From JAUWCW01 sp030609125 [NCBI: Candidatus Rokuibacteriota bacterium] (GTDB lineage: Bacteria; JAUVQV01): a DNA stretch of 9,722 bases. Where the stretch lies: the NCBI GenBank assembly GCA_030609125.1, contig JAUWCW010000050.1, forward strand, positions 1-9,722, given 5' to 3'. The translations under genes were made by a program, and so were the position numbers. Position 1 is the first letter of the stretch; the number at the start of each line of letters is the position of its first letter. A model generated the notes under the pieces. That model was not told where the DNA came from, did not search any database, and saw nothing but the letters and a program-made list of their open reading frames with translations. This document shows, one piece after another, positions 2,570 through 9,722 of the stretch.

Positions 2570-4636
2570 GTGAAGAAGTTTGTTCTTGACTCGGAGTTCT
2601 CTCCCCAGGGTGATCAGTCGAAGGCCATCGGCGATCTCATCCGGGGGGTACGGTCCGGGGTTCGGCACCAGGTGCTGCTCGGGGTCACCGGTTCGGGAAA
2701 AACCTTCACCGTCGCCAACGTCATAGAGGGGCTCCAGCGCCCGACCCTCGTGATATCCCACAACAAGACGCTTGCGGCTCAACTCTTCAACGAGTTCCGG
2801 TCCTTCTTTCCTGGAAACGCCGTAGAGTACTTCGTCTCCTATTACGACTACTATCAGCCCGAGGCGTATCTTCCCCAGACCGATACCTACATCGAGAAGG
2901 ATTCCGCCATCAACGAGCAGATCGACAAGCTGAGGCACTCCGCCACCAGGTCGATCCTGGAGAGAAGGGACGTCATCATAGTGGCCAGCGTGTCGTGCAT
3001 CTACGGCCTGGGTGCCCCCGATTATTACAGGGACATGAGGATCAGCCTGTCCGTCGGCAGCGGCCGCGGGCGACAGAGACTGCTGAGGGATCTTGTCGGG
3101 GTGCACTACAGGAGAAACGATCTTGATTTTTCGCGCGGGACATTCCGGGTCAGGGGGGACGTTGTGGAAGTGTTTCCCGCTTACGAGGAGGAGAAGATCC
3201 TGCGTGTCGAGTTCTTCGGGGAAACCGTGGAGCGCCTGGCGTGGCGGGACCCCCTGACGGGACGGTGCCTGGAGACGGTGGAGGAGGCCGGCATCTTCCC
3301 CGGGAGCCACTACGTCATTCCCGGGGAGGTCATGGAGGAAGCCCTGGGGGGCATCGAGCAGGAGCTGGAAGAGCGGCTGCAGTGGTTCCGGGCGCAGGAC
3401 AAGATTCTCGAGGCGCAGCGGCTCGAGCAGAGGACGAAGCTCGACATGGAGATGATCCGGGAGGTGGGTTTCTGCTCGGGCATCGAGAACTATTCCCGGC
3501 ATCTTACGGGGCGGACGACGGGGTCGCCTCCTCCAACGCTGATGGAGTACTTTCCCGACGACCTTCTGGTGGTTATCGACGAAAGCCACGTGACCGTCCC
3601 GCAGCTGAGAGCCATGGCGGCGGGGGACCGGTCGCGGAAGAGGAATCTCGTGGAGCACGGTTTTCGCCTTCCCTCGGCCTACGACAACCGGCCGCTGAGG
3701 TTCGAGGAGTTCGAGGAACGGGTGGGGCAGGTTGTCTACGTGTCCGCCACCCCCGCGCCGTACGAAATAGAGAAGGCCGGGGAGAGTGTGGTGGAGCAGA
3801 TAATACGCCCCACGGGGCTCATGGAGCCCGAGGTGGAGATTCGTCCCATCGCGGGCCAGGTTGAGGACCTGATGGAAGAGGTCAGGGTCAGGGCTGAGCG
3901 GGGGGAGCGGGTTCTCGTCACGACCCTCACCAAGAGGATGGCCGAGGATCTGACGGAGTACTACACGGAACTGGGGATCCGGGTTCGGTATCTGCATTCG
4001 GAAATCCACACCCTGGAGAGAATGCAGCTTCTGCGGGACCTCCGGCGTGGCGTCTTTGACGCCCTGATCGGCATCAACCTTCTCCGGGAGGGGCTCGATC
4101 TTCCGGAAGTCTCCCTCGTGGCGGTTCTTGACGCGGACAAGGAGGGCTTCCTCAGATCCGAGACGGCTCTCGTGCAGACGGCGGGGAGGGCGGCGAGGAA
4201 CATCGACGGCAAAGTGATTCTTTACGCCGACGTGATGACGGGATCCATTCGCCGCGCCATGGAAGAGACGGGAAGGAGGCGCGTCATCCAGAGCGAATAC
4301 AACATTCGGGAGGGGATAACTCCGGAGGGGATCAAGAAGGGCATCAACGACGTGCTGGTCTCGATTTACGAAGCGGACTACGGGCCGGTGCCGAGTGCGG
4401 CGGATGGCGCGGAGGAATACGTTCCGCTGGAGGAGGCCGAAGCGAAAATCGTGGCGCTGGAGGCGGCCATGAAAGAAGCTGCGGCCGGGCTGGAGTTCGA
4501 GAAGGCGGCGGAGCTGAGGGATCAGGTTCGAGAGTTGAAGTGGCGGGAAGTGCTGCCGGGAGCGGCAGGAATGGACGTGCGGCTCCCGGGGACAAAACGC
4601 GGGAAGGCCCGCAGGAAGAAAGGGCGGAAGACGTGA
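2570..4636 (+). CDS. uvrB: UvrABC excision nuclease subunit B (helicase-like damage verifier)
   Basis: A full-length UvrB of 688 residues (family usually about 660-690). In nucleotide excision repair it is loaded on DNA by UvrA, verifies the lesion with ATP and recruits UvrC. Visible marks: Walker A GVTGSGKT (38-45); the beta-hairpin region with [20 protein letters not shown] and the following [13 protein letters not shown] block; Walker B DESH (337-340); helicase motifs in the second RecA-like domain, including [24 protein letters not shown] and motif [11 protein letters not shown] (536-544; more often QTIGRAARN); and the C-terminal UVR motif at about 621-656, which pairs with the matching motif in UvrC. 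The start is GTG 2570, giving the typical N-terminus [13 protein letters not shown]; only weak GGAGAGG 16 nt upstream could serve as a ribosome site. The last 4 nt overlap the uvrC start, so the two are translationally coupled. A basic tail ([11 protein letters not shown]) ends the protein. Confidence 0.98.
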
Positions 4637-6492
4637 GGGAGGCGCGGGAGGCCGTTCGCATTCTGCAGGGTGAGGCTGAGAGAGCTCCCCGCGGGCCCGG
4701 GGTATACATCATGCGCGGTGCGGATGACGCGGTTCTCTACGTGGGCAAAGCCAAGTCGCTGCGGGCGAGGCTGAGGAGCTACAGGGATCCGCTTCGGCAA
4801 GGGCCGAAGACGGCCGTGATGGCGCGGCAGGTGAGAAAGGTTGAGACCCTCGTCACGGACACGGAAGTGGAGGCGTTGATCCTTGAGAACGCTCTCATCA
4901 AGAAGTACAGGCCCAAGTACAACATCACCCTCAGGGACGACAAGACGTATCCGTTTCTTCGGCTCTCGGTTCAGGAAGAATTTCCGGCGCTCACCGTGGT
5001 GCGGGGTCCTGGAAAGGACGGCGCGAGGTATTTCGGGCCCTACGTCCCCGCCGGGGCGATGCGGAAAACGGTGGCGATCCTGCAGAGGATCTTTCCGCTG
5101 CGAAAGTGCCGAACGGCTCTGAAGGCACGGCGGGGGCGACCCTGTCTGAACTTCCAGATGGGCAGATGCCTGGCGCCCTGCGCCGGCAGGGTCACCGGCG
5201 AGGAGTACGGGAAGCTCGTCCGGGGGGTCGCGCTCTTTCTGCAGGGAAAGGGAAGGGAGCTGGCGGGGGAATACCGGAAGCGGATGCTGGAGCTCTCCGG
5301 ACAGGAGCGCTATGAGGAGGCGGCGGTCCTGAGGGACCGGATCGGGGCGATTGAGGCGACGCTCCAAAGGCAGAAGGTGCACTTTCCCGGAAGGGGTGAT
5401 CTGGACGTCCTCGGCAGCGCCATCCTCGGGGAGAGGCGGGTGGTGACGGTTCTGCACGCGGCGAAGGGGCAGATCGTCGGGGCCAGAACGATCCATGTCA
5501 GGGAGAGTCCCGAGGAGGAAGGGGAGATGTTCTCCGAGTTCCTGCGCGCGTTCTACGACAGGGCGTCTTCCGTGCCGCCGGAGATCCTTCTCCCCCAAAG
5601 GCCGGCCGGATTCGAGGCCATGGAGGAGTGGCTGCAGGGGAAGCGCGGAAGGCGCGTGAGGCTTCTGGTGCCCAGAGCAGGGCCTCTGCGGGCGCTCGTG
5701 TCGCTGGCGTCGCGCAATGCGATGGAGACGCTGGAGAGAGGAAAGACTCGCGGCGGGGGCGAGGACGCCGTGGGCCAACTGGGGATGGTGGCGGCCAGGC
5801 TTAAAGGGCTCCGCACTCTGGGGGCGGTGGACGTGTCCGCCATCTGCGGTACCGACACCGTCGCCTCCTTCGTATGGTGGGAGGGCGGCAGGTTCAAGAA
5901 AAGCCGTTACCGGAGGTTCCGGATCGGGTCCCCCGCCGGGGGCGACGATTACGCCGCCATGACCGAAGTGGTGAAGCGGCTGGCGGCGAGAATTGAAAAG
6001 GGGAGATGGCCCGGGCCGGACATCCTGCTTCTGGACGGCGGGAAAGGGCACCTGTCGGCGGTGAGAAGGTGTCTTGCCGGGCGGAAGTGGCAACCCGCCC
6101 TCACCGTCGCGATCGCCAAGCCCGGGGGGGGACGCTCCAGAGACGCAGTCTACGCGGAGGGCAGAAGAGACTCTCTTCACCTGGACAGGGTTCCCGACGT
6201 GCTGCGTACGCTCCAGACGGTGAGGGATGAGGCCCACCGTTTCGCGGTGGCGTACCATCGCAGGGTGAGAAGCAGAAGAGTGCTCGGGAGTGCACTCGAG
6301 GCGGTGCCCGGGATCGGCCCGGAGCGCAGGAAGCTTCTCCTCAGGAGGTTCGGGAGCCTGGAGAGACTGCGGCGGGCGAGCCGAAGGGATCTGCAGGCGG
6401 TGGAGGGGCTTCCTGCCGCAGTGGCCGATGACCTCTTTGTGTATCTGCGAAAATGGCCGGGGCGCCGCGGAAACGCAACCCGCCTCAGGTGA
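4633..6492 (+). CDS. uvrC: UvrABC excision nuclease subunit C
   Basis: A full-length UvrC of 619 residues, the dual-incision nuclease recruited by UvrB. Domains in order: GIY-YIG nuclease for the 3' cut (about 21-100; GVY 23-25, [15 protein letters not shown] 36-50 with R46, and the [13 protein letters not shown] block); a four-cysteine cluster C159, C171, C179, C183, with the same spacing as the reported [4Fe-4S] ligands of E. coli UvrC; a UVR motif (about 205-245) for UvrB contact; an RNase H-like nuclease for the 5' cut with D400, D468 (LLLDGGKGH) and H535 (RDEAHRFAV), matching the T. maritima triad; and paired helix-hairpin-helix motifs (about 556-610, [18 protein letters not shown]). GTG 4633 is chosen because it overlaps the uvrB stop as GTGA and gives the usual short lead before the GIY domain; a frame open from 4540 would add an unlikely 31 residues. 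The DISH motif of the RNase H-like domain reads DVSA (400-403). The 3' end overlaps the convergent kinase gene by 8 nt. Confidence 0.98.
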
Positions 6493-8227
6493 GCTCGGCG
6501 CGGGGAAAAGTACGGGAGGAGTCTCCGGGATCGGAGCCGTCCGGGGCGCCGGTCCCGGGAAGCGTGAAATGGAAGGTGCAGCCCTTCCCCGGCTCGCTTT
6601 CCGCCCAGACTTTGCCGCCGTGAAGAGCGACGATCTCTTTCACGATGCTCAGGCCGAGCCCGGCGCCGCCGTAGTGCCTGGTGGCTGAAGAGTCGACCTG
6701 GTGGAATTTCTCGAAGATCTTCTCCTGTTCCTGTTCGGGAATGCCTATCCCTCTGTCCCGGCAGAGGAAGTGAAAGGAGGCGTCGTCCTCCCGGCACTCG
6801 AGATCGATGGTGGAGCCCTCGGGTGAGAACTTGATGGCGTTGCCGATGAGGTTCGTGAAGACCTGCTTGATCTTGTCCGGGTCGCAGAAGATCCGCCGCC
6901 CGCAGGAGGAGGTGTTGAGCCTTATCTGCTTTCTCTGGAGATCTTCCTGAAACTGCTCGACCACATCGAGGAGGGCGCTCTCTACGGCAACCTCCTCCCT
7001 GTGAATGACCATGGCCTTGGCGTCGAGTCGCGAAAGGTCTATGAGCTCATCTATCATCCGCGTCAGCTGCTGCCCCCGGCGTTTGCTGATCTCCACGGCT
7101 TCACGCAGCTGCTGGGGGTCTTGCCGGTAACGCTCGTCGAGGATGAGGGAGAGGAAACCGTTGATGACGGAGAGAGGGGTCTTCAGCTCGTGAGAGACGA
7201 TGGAGAGGAAGTTGGATTTCGCCTGGTTGGCCTTGAGCAGGTCGATGTTGGCTGCTTCGAGCCGCCGCTTTGACTCTCCCAGGGCGGACGTCGTTTCCTG
7301 GAGCCGGTCGACCATGTTTTCCAGCTCGGTAGTCCTTTCGCCGATCCGGGCTTCCAGGTTTTCGTTGAGGTCGCGAAGCTGGACGTTCGCGCGGCTCAAC
7401 TCCTCCGCCTTCTGCTGGATCTCCAGGTCGCGGTCGTGAAGATGCTCGGCCATGAGATTAAAGCGGGAGGCGAGAAGGCTGTACTCGTCTTGACCGCCGG
7501 TGTTGGGAAGGCGGAGGCTGAAGTCGTCGCGATAGATGGACTCTGTTCCCCGAAGAAGGGAGGTCATGAGGCGGTTGATGGAGTAATGGGTGTAGCCCAT
7601 GATCACGAGGGCGAGGAGGACGACGAAGGCGACGACGGCGGTGACGGTGAAAATGGTTTCCCCCGCCAGGCGCGTGTTGGCGGCGAGAAGCTGGTTCACC
7701 ATGAAACCGGCAGAGGTGTTGATGGAGCTGATGGTCTGGATGATGTCCTCACCGAGAGCGTTGGCGTGGTCGTGGTGGACGATTTGAGCCTGCGGGTCGG
7801 AGGTTGTTATGAGAATGCTGATGTGCCCCTGATACTCGTTGATCTTGACTCCCAGGTCTTCCATCCTTGCTTCGAGGCGTGCGACGTCGTCAGCGAGGCT
7901 GTCGTGGCAGGAGGTGCAGTACTCGGGGTGAGGGTACTCCCGGTAGGATTTTGGAATGCTCATAAGGAGAGAGTCGAAAGCGACGATTTCGGCGACGAGA
8001 CCGTCGATGTTGCGTGAGTAGCCCGCCTTGTGCTTGTAAAGGTGGGCCTGGGCGGTCTGGATCTTTTCCAGGGCGTGGTGGTGCATGTGGAACAGAGTGT
8101 CCTTGAAGACGAAAACGTCCTGGTTCCGGCGGAGAAAATTGAGATTCCGAACTATCAAGGCGGTGCCGCCCAGGCAGACGACCGCGAGCAGAATGACTCC
8201 GAGACGGAGGCGGAGGCGAAGGCTCAT
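6485..8227 (-). CDS. Membrane sensor histidine kinase with periplasmic c-type haem motif
   Basis: A 580-residue inner-membrane histidine kinase. TM1 is at about 9-26, followed by a mostly helical periplasmic domain (about 27-190), TM2 at about 191-212, HAMP at about 213-265, a long coiled coil (about 265-335), a HisKA dimerisation domain with the phospho-acceptor H346 in SHELKTP, and a HATPase domain: N box NLIGNAIKF (N463), G1 DRGIGIP (491-497), F box FEKFHQVD and G2 GGAGLGLSIVK (520-530). The periplasmic domain contains CTSCH (104-108), the CxxCH signature for covalent haem c, within YCTSCHDS; its own helix also carries HMHHH (47-51), and HHDH occurs at 151-154, either of which could supply a distal ligand. 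It likely senses redox state or a haem ligand. There is no receiver domain, so a separate response regulator, not in this window, must exist. ATG 8227 lies 9 nt after the binding-protein stop, which indicates an operon; the ribosome site is weak. Its target genes are unknown. Confidence 0.93.
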   Translation of the reverse strand: MSLRLRLRLGVILLAVVCLGGTALIVRNLNFLRRNQDVFVFKDTLFHMHHHALEKIQTAQAHLYKHKAGYSRNIDGLVAEIVAFDSLLMSIPKSYREYPHPEYCTSCHDSLADDVARLEARMEDLGVKINEYQGHISILITTSDPQAQIVHHDHANALGEDIIQTISSINTSAGFMVNQLLAANTRLAGETIFTVTAVVAFVVLLALVIMGYTHYSINRLMTSLLRGTESIYRDDFSLRLPNTGGQDEYSLLASRFNLMAEHLHDRDLEIQQKAEELSRANVQLRDLNENLEARIGERTTELENMVDRLQETTSALGESKRRLEAANIDLLKANQAKSNFLSIVSHELKTPLSVINGFLSLILDERYRQDPQQLREAVEISKRRGQQLTRMIDELIDLSRLDAKAMVIHREEVAVESALLDVVEQFQEDLQRKQIRLNTSSCGRRIFCDPDKIKQVFTNLIGNAIKFSPEGSTIDLECREDDASFHFLCRDRGIGIPEQEQEKIFEKFHQVDSSATRHYGGAGLGLSIVKEIVALHGGKVWAESEPGKGCTFHFTLPGTGAPDGSDPGDSSRTFPRAELT

Positions 8228-8236
8228 GAAGGTGTC

Positions 8237-9226
8237 TTACCTGTAGGGGCGGGCCTCACGGACGTTCCGGAGGGGCCAGTCGGAGAGATTGATGCCCGCC
8301 TTTTCTGCCATGTCGATGACCGGGGAATAGTCCTGAAAGGAAGTCTCGATGAATTTCAGGGCCCCGAACTTGTTCAGCGCAGCCATCCCGTCAGGATCTT
8401 CGTGCATGGTGAGGAGGGCCTCCCGGAGTCTGGCTTTGAGGCCGTCATCGAGGCTGGGCCTGACGCCAAGACCGTTGGACGGCACTGCGGCCGAGGTGGA
8501 GAGGATTTTGACGTTGGCGGCAACATCGGGGTTGCGTTGCAGGAACTCCTGGAAGATGGTGTTCTTGCAGGCCCCCATGTCGACCTCTCCCTGGACGACG
8601 GCGATGAGCGAGGCATCGTGACTCCCGGAGAAGATCGCCCGGTCGAAATACGTCCCGGGATCGTCGGTGATGCCCGCCTGGCGGAGGACGCTCAGCGGAT
8701 AAAGAAAACCAGCGGTGGTGACCTTGTTCACGAAGGCGATGCTTCTGCCCCTCCACGTCGCGGGATCCGAAGTTATGCCGCTCCCCTCGAGTGTGAAGAT
8801 GTAGCCCCAATAGGTGGAGGAGTTGTCGGGCCACACCGGACGGGCCAGGATCTCGACACCTCCGCGAACCTGGGCGATGGCGCCGTTCATGCTTCCCCAG
8901 AAAGCGCCGTCGACGCGGTCTTCGAGGAGCTCGGAAAAGATGTGATCATAGTTGTCGAGGAGCTTGAAGTAGACACTGAGCCCCAGCTTCCGCGATAGAT
9001 ACGCCTGGAGAGGAAGATACTTGATCTTCTGCTCGAAGACATTCCGTTCCGGAAGCAGGGCGATCACCAGGTCGGCATCGGCTTCGAGGGCTGCGGGGGC
9101 GGGAGCTGCGGGGGGCTCCTCGGGCGCCCGGCTGCAACACGATACAAGCAGCAGCGCCAGGACGAGCGGGGAAAGGGCCATGAAAAGCCTGACGAGTCGT
9201 GCGGGGTGTACCTGCCAATCTCTCAC
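8237..9226 (-). CDS. PhnD-like periplasmic binding lipoprotein, probable co-sensor of the kinase
   Basis: A 329-residue substrate-binding lipoprotein of the PhnD (phosphate/phosphite/phosphonate) superfamily. A hydrophobic signal segment (LFMALSPLVLALL) leads to the lipobox LVSC, with Cys30 as the likely lipidated residue, followed by a Pro/Ala-rich tether. The body has the bilobed type II binding-protein pattern: strand VIALLPERN, a YLPLQAYLSRKLGLSVYF block, GAFWGSMNGAIAQ, WRGRSIAFVNKVTTAGFLYP (the usual ligand-loop region, with TTAGF in place of the common S.SG), FSGSHDASLIAVVQGEVDMGAC, and a C-terminal helix region ALLTMHEDPDGMAALNKFG. GTG 9226 is preferred because GGAGGG lies 4 nt upstream; GTG 9238, in frame, has no good ribosome site. 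The kinase gene follows after 9 nt and no transporter genes are near. PhnD-like proteins with this arrangement include AioX and ArrX, which bind arsenic oxyanions for their kinases. The ligand here cannot be told from sequence. Confidence 0.88.
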   Translation of the reverse strand: MRDWQVHPARLVRLFMALSPLVLALLLVSCCSRAPEEPPAAPAPAALEADADLVIALLPERNVFEQKIKYLPLQAYLSRKLGLSVYFKLLDNYDHIFSELLEDRVDGAFWGSMNGAIAQVRGGVEILARPVWPDNSSTYWGYIFTLEGSGITSDPATWRGRSIAFVNKVTTAGFLYPLSVLRQAGITDDPGTYFDRAIFSGSHDASLIAVVQGEVDMGACKNTIFQEFLQRNPDVAANVKILSTSAAVPSNGLGVRPSLDDGLKARLREALLTMHEDPDGMAALNKFGALKFIETSFQDYSPVIDMAEKAGINLSDWPLRNVREARPYR

Positions 9227-9267: not shown

Positions 9268-9296
9268 TTTATATACGTTTTTCGCATCTTTTTCAA
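9268..9296 (-). promoter_or_regulatory. Sigma70-type promoter for the binding-protein and kinase unit
   Basis: On the minus strand TTGAAA (9296-9291), a 17-nt spacer and TATAAA (9273-9268) form a near-consensus promoter in a short AT-rich island. The predicted start of transcription is about 35 nt upstream of GTG 9226. It lies in the 81-nt gap after the metalloprotease gene, where no terminator hairpin is seen, so read-through from the protease gene is also possible. Confidence 0.62.
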
Positions 9297-9307: not shown

Positions 9308-9722
9308 TCAGGGAAGAGAGGAGAGCCAGCGCTCCTGGAACTCCAGGGTTTCAAGGCGTGTCTCCTCCCTGAAGGCCTCCTCGAAGGGCACCCCCTTCCC
9401 GACGGATTCCAGCACTCTTCTCACCGTCCAGAAACCCTCCTCGTCGATGATCAATCTGACCGCCAGCAGGGCCGCAAGATAGGAGGCCTCGACCGATCCC
9501 CCCCGGCCCCTCAGACCTCCGTTGAGTCCCTGCAGAGTGCGGGGGAACGATCCTCCGTGTCTCTCGAGGTAGGCCTCGGCCCCGCTGGTGGGAGCGCCCT
9601 CGAAGTGCTTGGCCAGACCCTCCTGGAACCAGAGGGGGAGACCGCGGGGGGCCATGGCGAGAATGAAGGCGTGAGCCAGTTCGTGGATAAGGATGGGGCG
9701 GATCCGGGCCACGTCTCCCGGA
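9308..9722 (-). CDS. Zinc metalloprotease, MA-like (HExxH), C-terminal part
   Basis: The 3' part of a gene that enters from beyond the right edge; 137 codons plus stop are visible and the frame stays open to the edge (PGDVARIRP...). The fragment has ILIHELAHAF with the HExxH zinc motif (HELAH at 9685-9671), then LPLWFQEGLAKHFEG, in which the Glu of QEGLA (9622-9620) fits the third zinc ligand of gluzincins. The remainder matches the usual tail of the peptidase MA-like family: a helix around SYLAALLAVRLIIDEEG, then WTVRRVLESVGKGVPFEEAF and a closing WL. Such proteins are commonly exported and sometimes carry TPR repeats or a signal peptide in the part missing here, so location is not decided. 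An internal GTG at 9712 is not a likely start because homology appears to continue upstream. Substrate unknown. It precedes the sensor unit on the same strand, but that unit has its own promoter. Confidence 0.85.
   Translation of the reverse strand, partial: PGDVARIRPILIHELAHAFILAMAPRGLPLWFQEGLAKHFEGAPTSGAEAYLERHGGSFPRTLQGLNGGLRGRGGSVEASYLAALLAVRLIIDEEGFWTVRRVLESVGKGVPFEEAFREETRLETLEFQERWLSSLP

Follow-up and report, generated by a model that had tools for sequence, protein, structure and literature searches.

Analysis of a 9,722-nucleotide (nt) stretch of DNA from a Candidatus Rokuibacteriota genome (contig JAUWCW010000050.1 of a 376-contig assembly; hereafter the window) identified a pair of genes on the minus strand. 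The first encodes a PhnD-family (PF12974) periplasmic binding lipoprotein (positions 8237-9226; 329 amino acids (aa), GTG start) and the second, 9 nt downstream, a transmembrane sensor histidine kinase (6485-8227; 580 aa, ATG start) that carries a single haem-c-type motif in a periplasmic sensor predicted to be a four-helix bundle. The two genes occur side by side in several phyla, their products co-vary, and the motif is conserved. The predicted fold of the lipoprotein is closest to those of known sensory binding proteins, and no importer was linked to the pair in the loci examined. We put the likelihood that the pair is a co-receptor signalling system of the AioXS/TorTS-like kind, combining a binding lipoprotein with a haem-c-type four-helix sensor kinase, at a little above even.

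Recurrence and co-variation of the pair

The binding protein was searched for in 386 genomes, including its own, at an E-value of 1e-25, and was matched in 32 of them at 34 places. Eight of the 12 strongest places (approximately 195 bits or more) adjoin four-helix CxxCH sensors, the window and a locus in genome G001 included. The other four are L044, with a broken sensor; L047 and L048, with large partners without CxxCH that were labelled HAMP-like by eye; and L052, where the kinase has a CxxCH at aa 179 in a different domain (a PF21563 match under the cut-off) and lies one PilZ gene from the binding protein. At L044 (6779-8223) the kinase gene stops after the sensor, the CxxCH is lost and unrelated sequence follows, perhaps through an insertion, and at L052 (5674-10815) the kinase, the PilZ gene, a fused binding protein and a sigma-54 regulator stand in a row. 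The next five places (144-162 bits) encode a PBP_like_2 domain fused to a PF12974 domain, as checked with Pfam for three of the five: L053 (3786-5588), L054 (6451-8205), L055 (6073-8037), L056 (6703-8577) and L057 (5310-7064). In these fusions an insert within the PF12974 domain contains a CxxCH, which the adjacent kinases lack; L054 and L055 adjoin genes with 20 CxxCH motifs. The 17 more distant PF12974 proteins (92-109 bits) were controls, and none of the 17 had such a sensor adjacent. Their neighbours included an ATP-binding cassette (ABC) ATPase and permease (L149), an ATPase (L144, L145), kinases (L143, L150, L151, L154) and a GGDEF protein (L153). Other CxxCH motifs near these controls were in a 332-aa gene (L142, one motif), a 653-aa gene (L149, two) and, further off, a small gene with three (L150).

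A second scan with the binding protein alone, covering one genome per species, retained the best 80 of 193 relatives. The profile was built from an 11-sequence alignment; a two-sequence alignment gave no match. By record title, the 80 loci were Nitrospirae-type (45), Deltaproteobacteria-type (25), Proteobacteria (3), Spirochaetes (2) or unclassified (5), and 15 of the Deltaproteobacteria-titled loci are Myxococcota by NCBI rank. An adjacent same-strand HAMP sensor with CxxCH was present in 71/80 loci (70 downstream, one upstream). Among the rest, the sensor had CX3CH in place of CxxCH (L061, 6824-9142), was cut by a contig end (L123) or was frame-shifted, with the CxxCH in another frame (L134). 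No sensor of the family was found in 6/80 (L065, L102, L109, L125, L133 and L136); L133 lies near a contig end, and the partner at L109 and L125 is HAMP-like. The two genes were spaced by -4 or -1 nt at 29/74 sensor-bearing loci. As the pair recurs in several phyla, chance pairing is very unlikely, and the pairing of a PhnD-like lipoprotein with a haem-motif kinase, first proposed in a preliminary description made from the sequence of the window, is real and recurrent.

G001 was the only one of 59 other genomes searched as relatives to share the gene order of the window. Its locus (L008) reads peptidase-like gene, binding protein, kinase and convergent uvrC, with gene labels given by eye, and its pair has the CTSCH form of the motif, the binding proteins being 55% identical and the sensor regions 36%.

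The distance matrices of the binding proteins and the sensors were correlated at r = 0.87 over 68 pairs, the largest value in 2000 permutations being 0.16; six of the 74 (L064, L093, L099, L110, L123 and L134) were dropped as partial or truncated. Swapping the paralogues in six genomes with two systems reduced the correlation sharply in five, for example from 0.97 and 0.91 to -0.59 and -0.45, and did not in one. Quick maximum-likelihood trees, with Shimodaira-Hasegawa-like approximate likelihood ratio test (SH-aLRT) support only and several long branches among the controls, separated all 70 clade rows from the controls (support 100). Six fused rows formed one group inside the clade (support 96), and the four rows with CxxCH-less HAMP-like partners formed one nested group (support 99), consistent with a single event.

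Predicted structure of the binding protein and the sensor

The binding protein matched PF12974 with 176 bits against a Pfam cut-off of 27, which places it in the family, and matched TIGR01098 above the cut-off. The lipobox, LVSC, is at aa 27-30 of the translation (9137-9148, minus strand); a lipobox count of 21/70 over trimmed rows was discarded, as not every row starts at the initiation codon. The AlphaFold2 (AF2) model had a mean predicted local distance difference test score (pLDDT) of 91.2, and its closest PDB folds were ArrX (ranks 1-5, TM-score by target 0.84-0.93), then AioX and PtxB, the last being the nearest by sequence. The likeness to oxyanion sensors that had been suggested from the sequence is thus reflected in the nearest solved folds. 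The loop motif PERNVFEQ (aa 59-66; 9029-9052, minus strand) is a hallmark of the clade, with P59, E60 and Q66 each present in 70/70 rows. Judged by residue count, it would lie roughly at the position of the AioX signalling loop, which is given as residues 53-61 in the available text of the AioX study (PMC5908839).

The pocket was mapped from the AioX residue list of the same study (PMC5908839) and an alignment with ArrX, and the correspondence to AioX, made via ArrX, is putative. On this mapping, Tyr88, Tyr131, Ser161 and His192 of AioX would correspond to Tyr93, Tyr139, Thr170 and His203 (all four invariant across 70 rows), Cys106 to Gly111 (70/70), Ser163 to Ala172 (68/70), and Asp210 to Lys221 (8564-8566, minus strand; 70/70). 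The invariant lysine points to an anion as the ligand rather than to arsenite. The available text on AioX reports that Cys106 binds arsenite (PMC5908839); arsenic sensing was considered for the present protein and is disfavoured because the equivalent of this cysteine is absent.

The model and the sequence give the kinase a membrane-periplasm-membrane topology. The periplasmic sensor spans about aa 31-190 (7658-8137, minus strand) and matches no Pfam sensor family; Pfam assigns the HAMP (7433-7582), HisKA (7019-7222) and HATPase_c (6557-6883) domains, all on the minus strand. SHELKTP, read from the sequence of HisKA, contains the likely phospho-acceptor His346, and no receiver domain was found in the kinase of the window. 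The AF2 model of the sensor, made from 68 sequences (mean pLDDT 92.7 over aa 1-275), contains helices at 3-68, 74-97, 111-141 and 145-232, with CTSCH (aa 104-108; 7904-7918, minus strand) between the second and the third. Its PDB matches at E 0.001 or better were three NarQ fragments only, with TM-scores near 0.4, which show the class of the predicted fold and nothing beyond. The sequence profile of the sensor had no convincing PDB relative.

When the 68 sensors were compared with Pfam at E 0.01, HAMP was matched in all 68 and 18 families were matched in total, the non-HAMP matches being scattered and weak. Membership of DUF3365 (sCache_heme) or PF21563 was rejected, neither being among the 18. 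Ser137 and Thr141, at the end of helix 3 (7805-7819, minus strand; helix limits from the AF2 model), are invariant across the 68 sensors and were not selected for; the invariance of the Cys and His residues in this set is partly due to selection. From the helix lengths, CTSCH would be placed toward the membrane, and Ser137, Thr141 and the turn at 66-75 at the membrane-distal end of the bundle, which could be a docking face for the binding protein.

Proposed mechanism and alternative explanations

As a co-receptor, the lipoprotein would bind a small anion in a PhnD/AioX-type pocket formed by Tyr93, Tyr139, Thr170, His203 and Lys221, and close around it. The loaded protein would then engage the membrane-distal end of the four-helix periplasmic bundle of the kinase. 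The same bundle would bear one c-type haem at CTSCH, near its membrane-proximal end, and the state of the haem (redox or bound gas) and the loaded binding protein would jointly set the bundle, the transmembrane helices and the HAMP domain, leading to autophosphorylation and the transfer of phosphate to a response regulator encoded elsewhere in the genome. Ligand and redox state may thereby be integrated.

Several observations weigh against this co-receptor reading; they concern the haem, the pairing and the cognate regulator. Genome G043 (98% complete, locus L045) has the pair with no PF01578 or ResB match. The clade of L047, L048, L109 and L125 retains the same binding protein beside HAMP-like partners without CxxCH. 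A universal second axial haem ligand, on the distal side, was sought in the 68 sensors and not found; a His is present at 43, 47 or 171 in 63/68. These findings would suit a CxxCH without haem, acting as a metal site or a redox disulphide, so that the pair would be a plain AioXS-like ligand sensor. We consider this unlikely, although it has to be weighed: the second Cys is still followed by a His in 71/80 partners, the sole spacing variant is CX3CH, and the five fused relatives have the motif again, in their binding protein. Furthermore, a cytochrome c assembly homologue was present in 42/43 sensor-bearing genomes, though the contrast is modest, with 9/14 control genomes matching too; G349, one of six genomes checked for ResB, is without ResB but has PF01578. 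The CxxCH of the window kinase lies in an exported region, and its genome has PF01578 and PF05140 matches, with four cytochrome c assembly places and ResB. Haem is probably attached covalently at CTSCH.

Seen from the sensor, the pairing is less strict. The sensor profile matched nine places in the 386 genomes, all nine beside a binding protein of the clade, eight of them being seeds of the profile. It was also run over 39 genomes, each chosen as it holds a pair locus, which favours the pair, and gave 75 places in 38 of them (74 read in DNA and L051 added by hand). CxxCH was present in 72/75 sensors, the exceptions being the CX3CH case, a truncated gene (L239) and L237, where the single CxxCH is outside the first 160 residues scanned. 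The binding protein was directly upstream of 54/75 sensor genes and no adjacent one was present for 21/75. The preliminary description had treated kinase homologues lacking such a neighbour as contrary to it; its expectation thus held for 54 sensors but failed for the other 21. The index loci, which make up 36 of the 75 places, were all paired (36/36), and outside them 18/39 were paired and 21/39 were not. Two of the unpaired genes end at a contig edge (L222, L223), and a third, in L213, encodes an additional kinase that follows an intact pair. A binding-protein gene of this kind nearly always has the sensor as its neighbour, and a sensor gene has a linked partner in about half of the unbiased cases. 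Because of the 21/39 unpaired genes, many sensors of the family may work without a linked partner.

This recount slightly lowered our confidence in the co-receptor reading and in the wider receptor class proposed below, and raised it in the explanation that the haem kinase alone senses redox or gas, the binding protein being co-inherited, or accessory and non-signalling. The pair is also a compact cassette, and cassette inheritance can explain the co-variation without contact. However, a sensor working alone is distinctly improbable: the co-variation is specific to paralogues, the binding proteins have no linked importer and sensory binding proteins as their nearest folds, the part of the bundle predicted to lie farthest from the membrane holds invariant residues, and for the orphan sensors a binding protein could be supplied from another locus. 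In 8/20 unpaired regions (L240, L209, L215, L222, L224, L225, L235 and L237) a nearby gene was seen to have at least four CxxCH motifs, and multihaem cytochromes lie near many loci; a background rate is absent for both, and the cytochromes were not used as evidence.

The outputs of 74 sensors were histidine kinase (35), histidine kinase with receiver (16), GGDEF (16), and cut or unknown (7). Sigma54_activat was matched by 18/44 downstream same-strand neighbours. Three of the 44 come from loci where no sensor is intact (L102, L125 and L134), the one from L134 being the 3' portion of its frame-shifted gene, which itself has a sigma-54 domain. At L134 (1294-3466), this 3' portion has both HAMP-like sequence and the activator domain, the sensor being apparently fused straight to a transcription activator. 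The notion of a stand-alone unit fits the genome of the window but not these loci elsewhere. The genome of the window has 12 sigma-54-regulator matches, the full-length ones 39-45% identical, and none stands out as the cognate regulator. A glutamate-dehydrogenase-type gene was directly upstream in 5/41 upstream neighbours, one of them at L086 (4871-5962).

No ABC family appeared among the families listed as matched by at least two of the 85 same-strand neighbours (25 of 40 families listed downstream, 25 of 41 upstream). Around the 80 loci, in a one-reference search, no ABC permease was among the matches listed. The ABC-ATPase-like matches were near L077, L090 and L119 (600-694 aa, other strand), L102 (672 aa) and L124 (a 149-aa contig-edge piece directly upstream), and apart from this last piece no PhnC-sized ATPase was listed. 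Neither the window nor the G001 locus had an ABC ATPase and permease, in agreement with the earlier report of no neighbouring importer, and the binding-protein genes of the 80 loci were not consistently beside such genes. That the binding protein works for an ABC importer whose genes lie at another locus, with the kinase monitoring the transporter as in Phn/Pst control, is very improbable given these results and the excessive length of the full-length ATPase matches for a PhnC-type protein, even though PF12974 proteins are often importer parts, as in three of the 17 controls.

More tentatively, and with somewhat less than even confidence, the loci may represent a class of receptors that is widespread but has not been described, a PhnD-clade anion receptor and a c-type haem together making up a dual-input (coincidence) sensor. 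The haem would be variously placed, in the four-helix sensor domain, itself new, in a different haem kinase or within the binding protein, and the outputs, kinase or cyclic di-GMP enzymes, would be interchangeable. If true, the receptor would inform anaerobes both of the presence of a given anion and of a redox state in which that anion can be used. It would constitute a new family of sensors, with a logic gate open to testing, for the control of anaerobic respiration in little-cultured lineages with Nitrospirae and Deltaproteobacteria titles.

Setting of the locus and comparison with known systems

The coordinates, the 9-nt spacing and the convergent uvrC at the kinase end, all given in the preliminary description, were confirmed from the sequence and Pfam; uvrC (4540-6492, plus strand) overlaps the kinase stop. 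On the other side, the 3' part of a peptidase-like gene (9308-9722, minus strand; HELAHAF read by eye) is clipped by the contig end. It is co-directional, ends 82 nt upstream of the binding-protein gene and has no Pfam match and a weak NCBIfam flagellinolysin match far under the cut-off; it may be part of the same operon. The unit is bounded by uvrC, as had been proposed, but a closed two-gene unit is not proven, because the contig is cut upstream and the peptidase-like gene precedes the pair in G001 too. The proposed promoter at 9268-9296 (minus strand) is present as TTGAAA-17-TATAAA but is not proven, and was uncounted under the stricter consensus of the motif tool. The 9,722-nt contig, clipped on the upstream side by its end, showed neither a permease nor an ABC ATPase nor a response regulator, and no arsenic genes were recognised in it, the search for these being confined to the contig. 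The same genome contains a second PhnD-family gene that overlaps a kinase gene by 4 nt (L009, 2734-5495), this kinase having a PAS-type look and no CxxCH by eye, and a third PhnD-family lipoprotein close to a gene labelled by eye as a YeeE/YedE-like membrane protein (L010, 683-3300).

Like AioX-AioS-AioR and ArrX-ArrS, the present pair joins a PhnD-family binding protein to a transmembrane kinase, and the pocket Tyr, Tyr, Ser/Thr and His of AioX and ArrX are kept. AioR is described as sigma-54-type in the available text (PMC5908839), and regulators of this type are common near the present pairs too. In contrast to AioX, with Cys106, Ser163 and Asp210, the pocket has Gly111, Ala172 and Lys221 (mapped via ArrX), and the pair differs from AioXS in the CxxCH of the sensor and the GGDEF outputs elsewhere, and in that no arsenic genes were seen in the window. 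TorT-TorS likewise combines a binding protein with a kinase that has a helical periplasmic domain; TorT is of a different binding-protein family, and to our knowledge TorS has no haem motif. The NCBIfam TorS model aligns from aa 122 of the kinase, far below the cut-off. NarX/NarQ, the best fold match of the sensor model, bind nitrate directly, and we know of no CxxCH or binding protein in these systems.

Single periplasmic CxxCH motifs are described for sCache_heme (DUF3365-Tll0287) and PF21563 in kinases, chemoreceptors or GGDEF/EAL proteins, in the available text of PMC12889525, which gives sCache_heme a Cache fold, unlike the four-helix bundle predicted here. According to the accessible parts of PMC12889525 and PMC8396549, the known c-type haem sensors are mostly PAS or Cache, with MsmS as a PHY-like exception, and the latter, a 2021 review, counts few two-component systems with c-type haem. 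The pair is not mentioned in the available portions of PMC3831638, PMC2825233, PMC8846402 and PMC12285233, and the open-licence literature, to which the search was confined (subscription papers were outside its scope), yielded no description of it, in keeping with the earlier statement that the combination was not known as characterised. The new element is the pairing of a PhnD-clade co-receptor with an unnamed haem-motif four-helix sensor; the AioXS/TorTS-type mode of signalling is already known.

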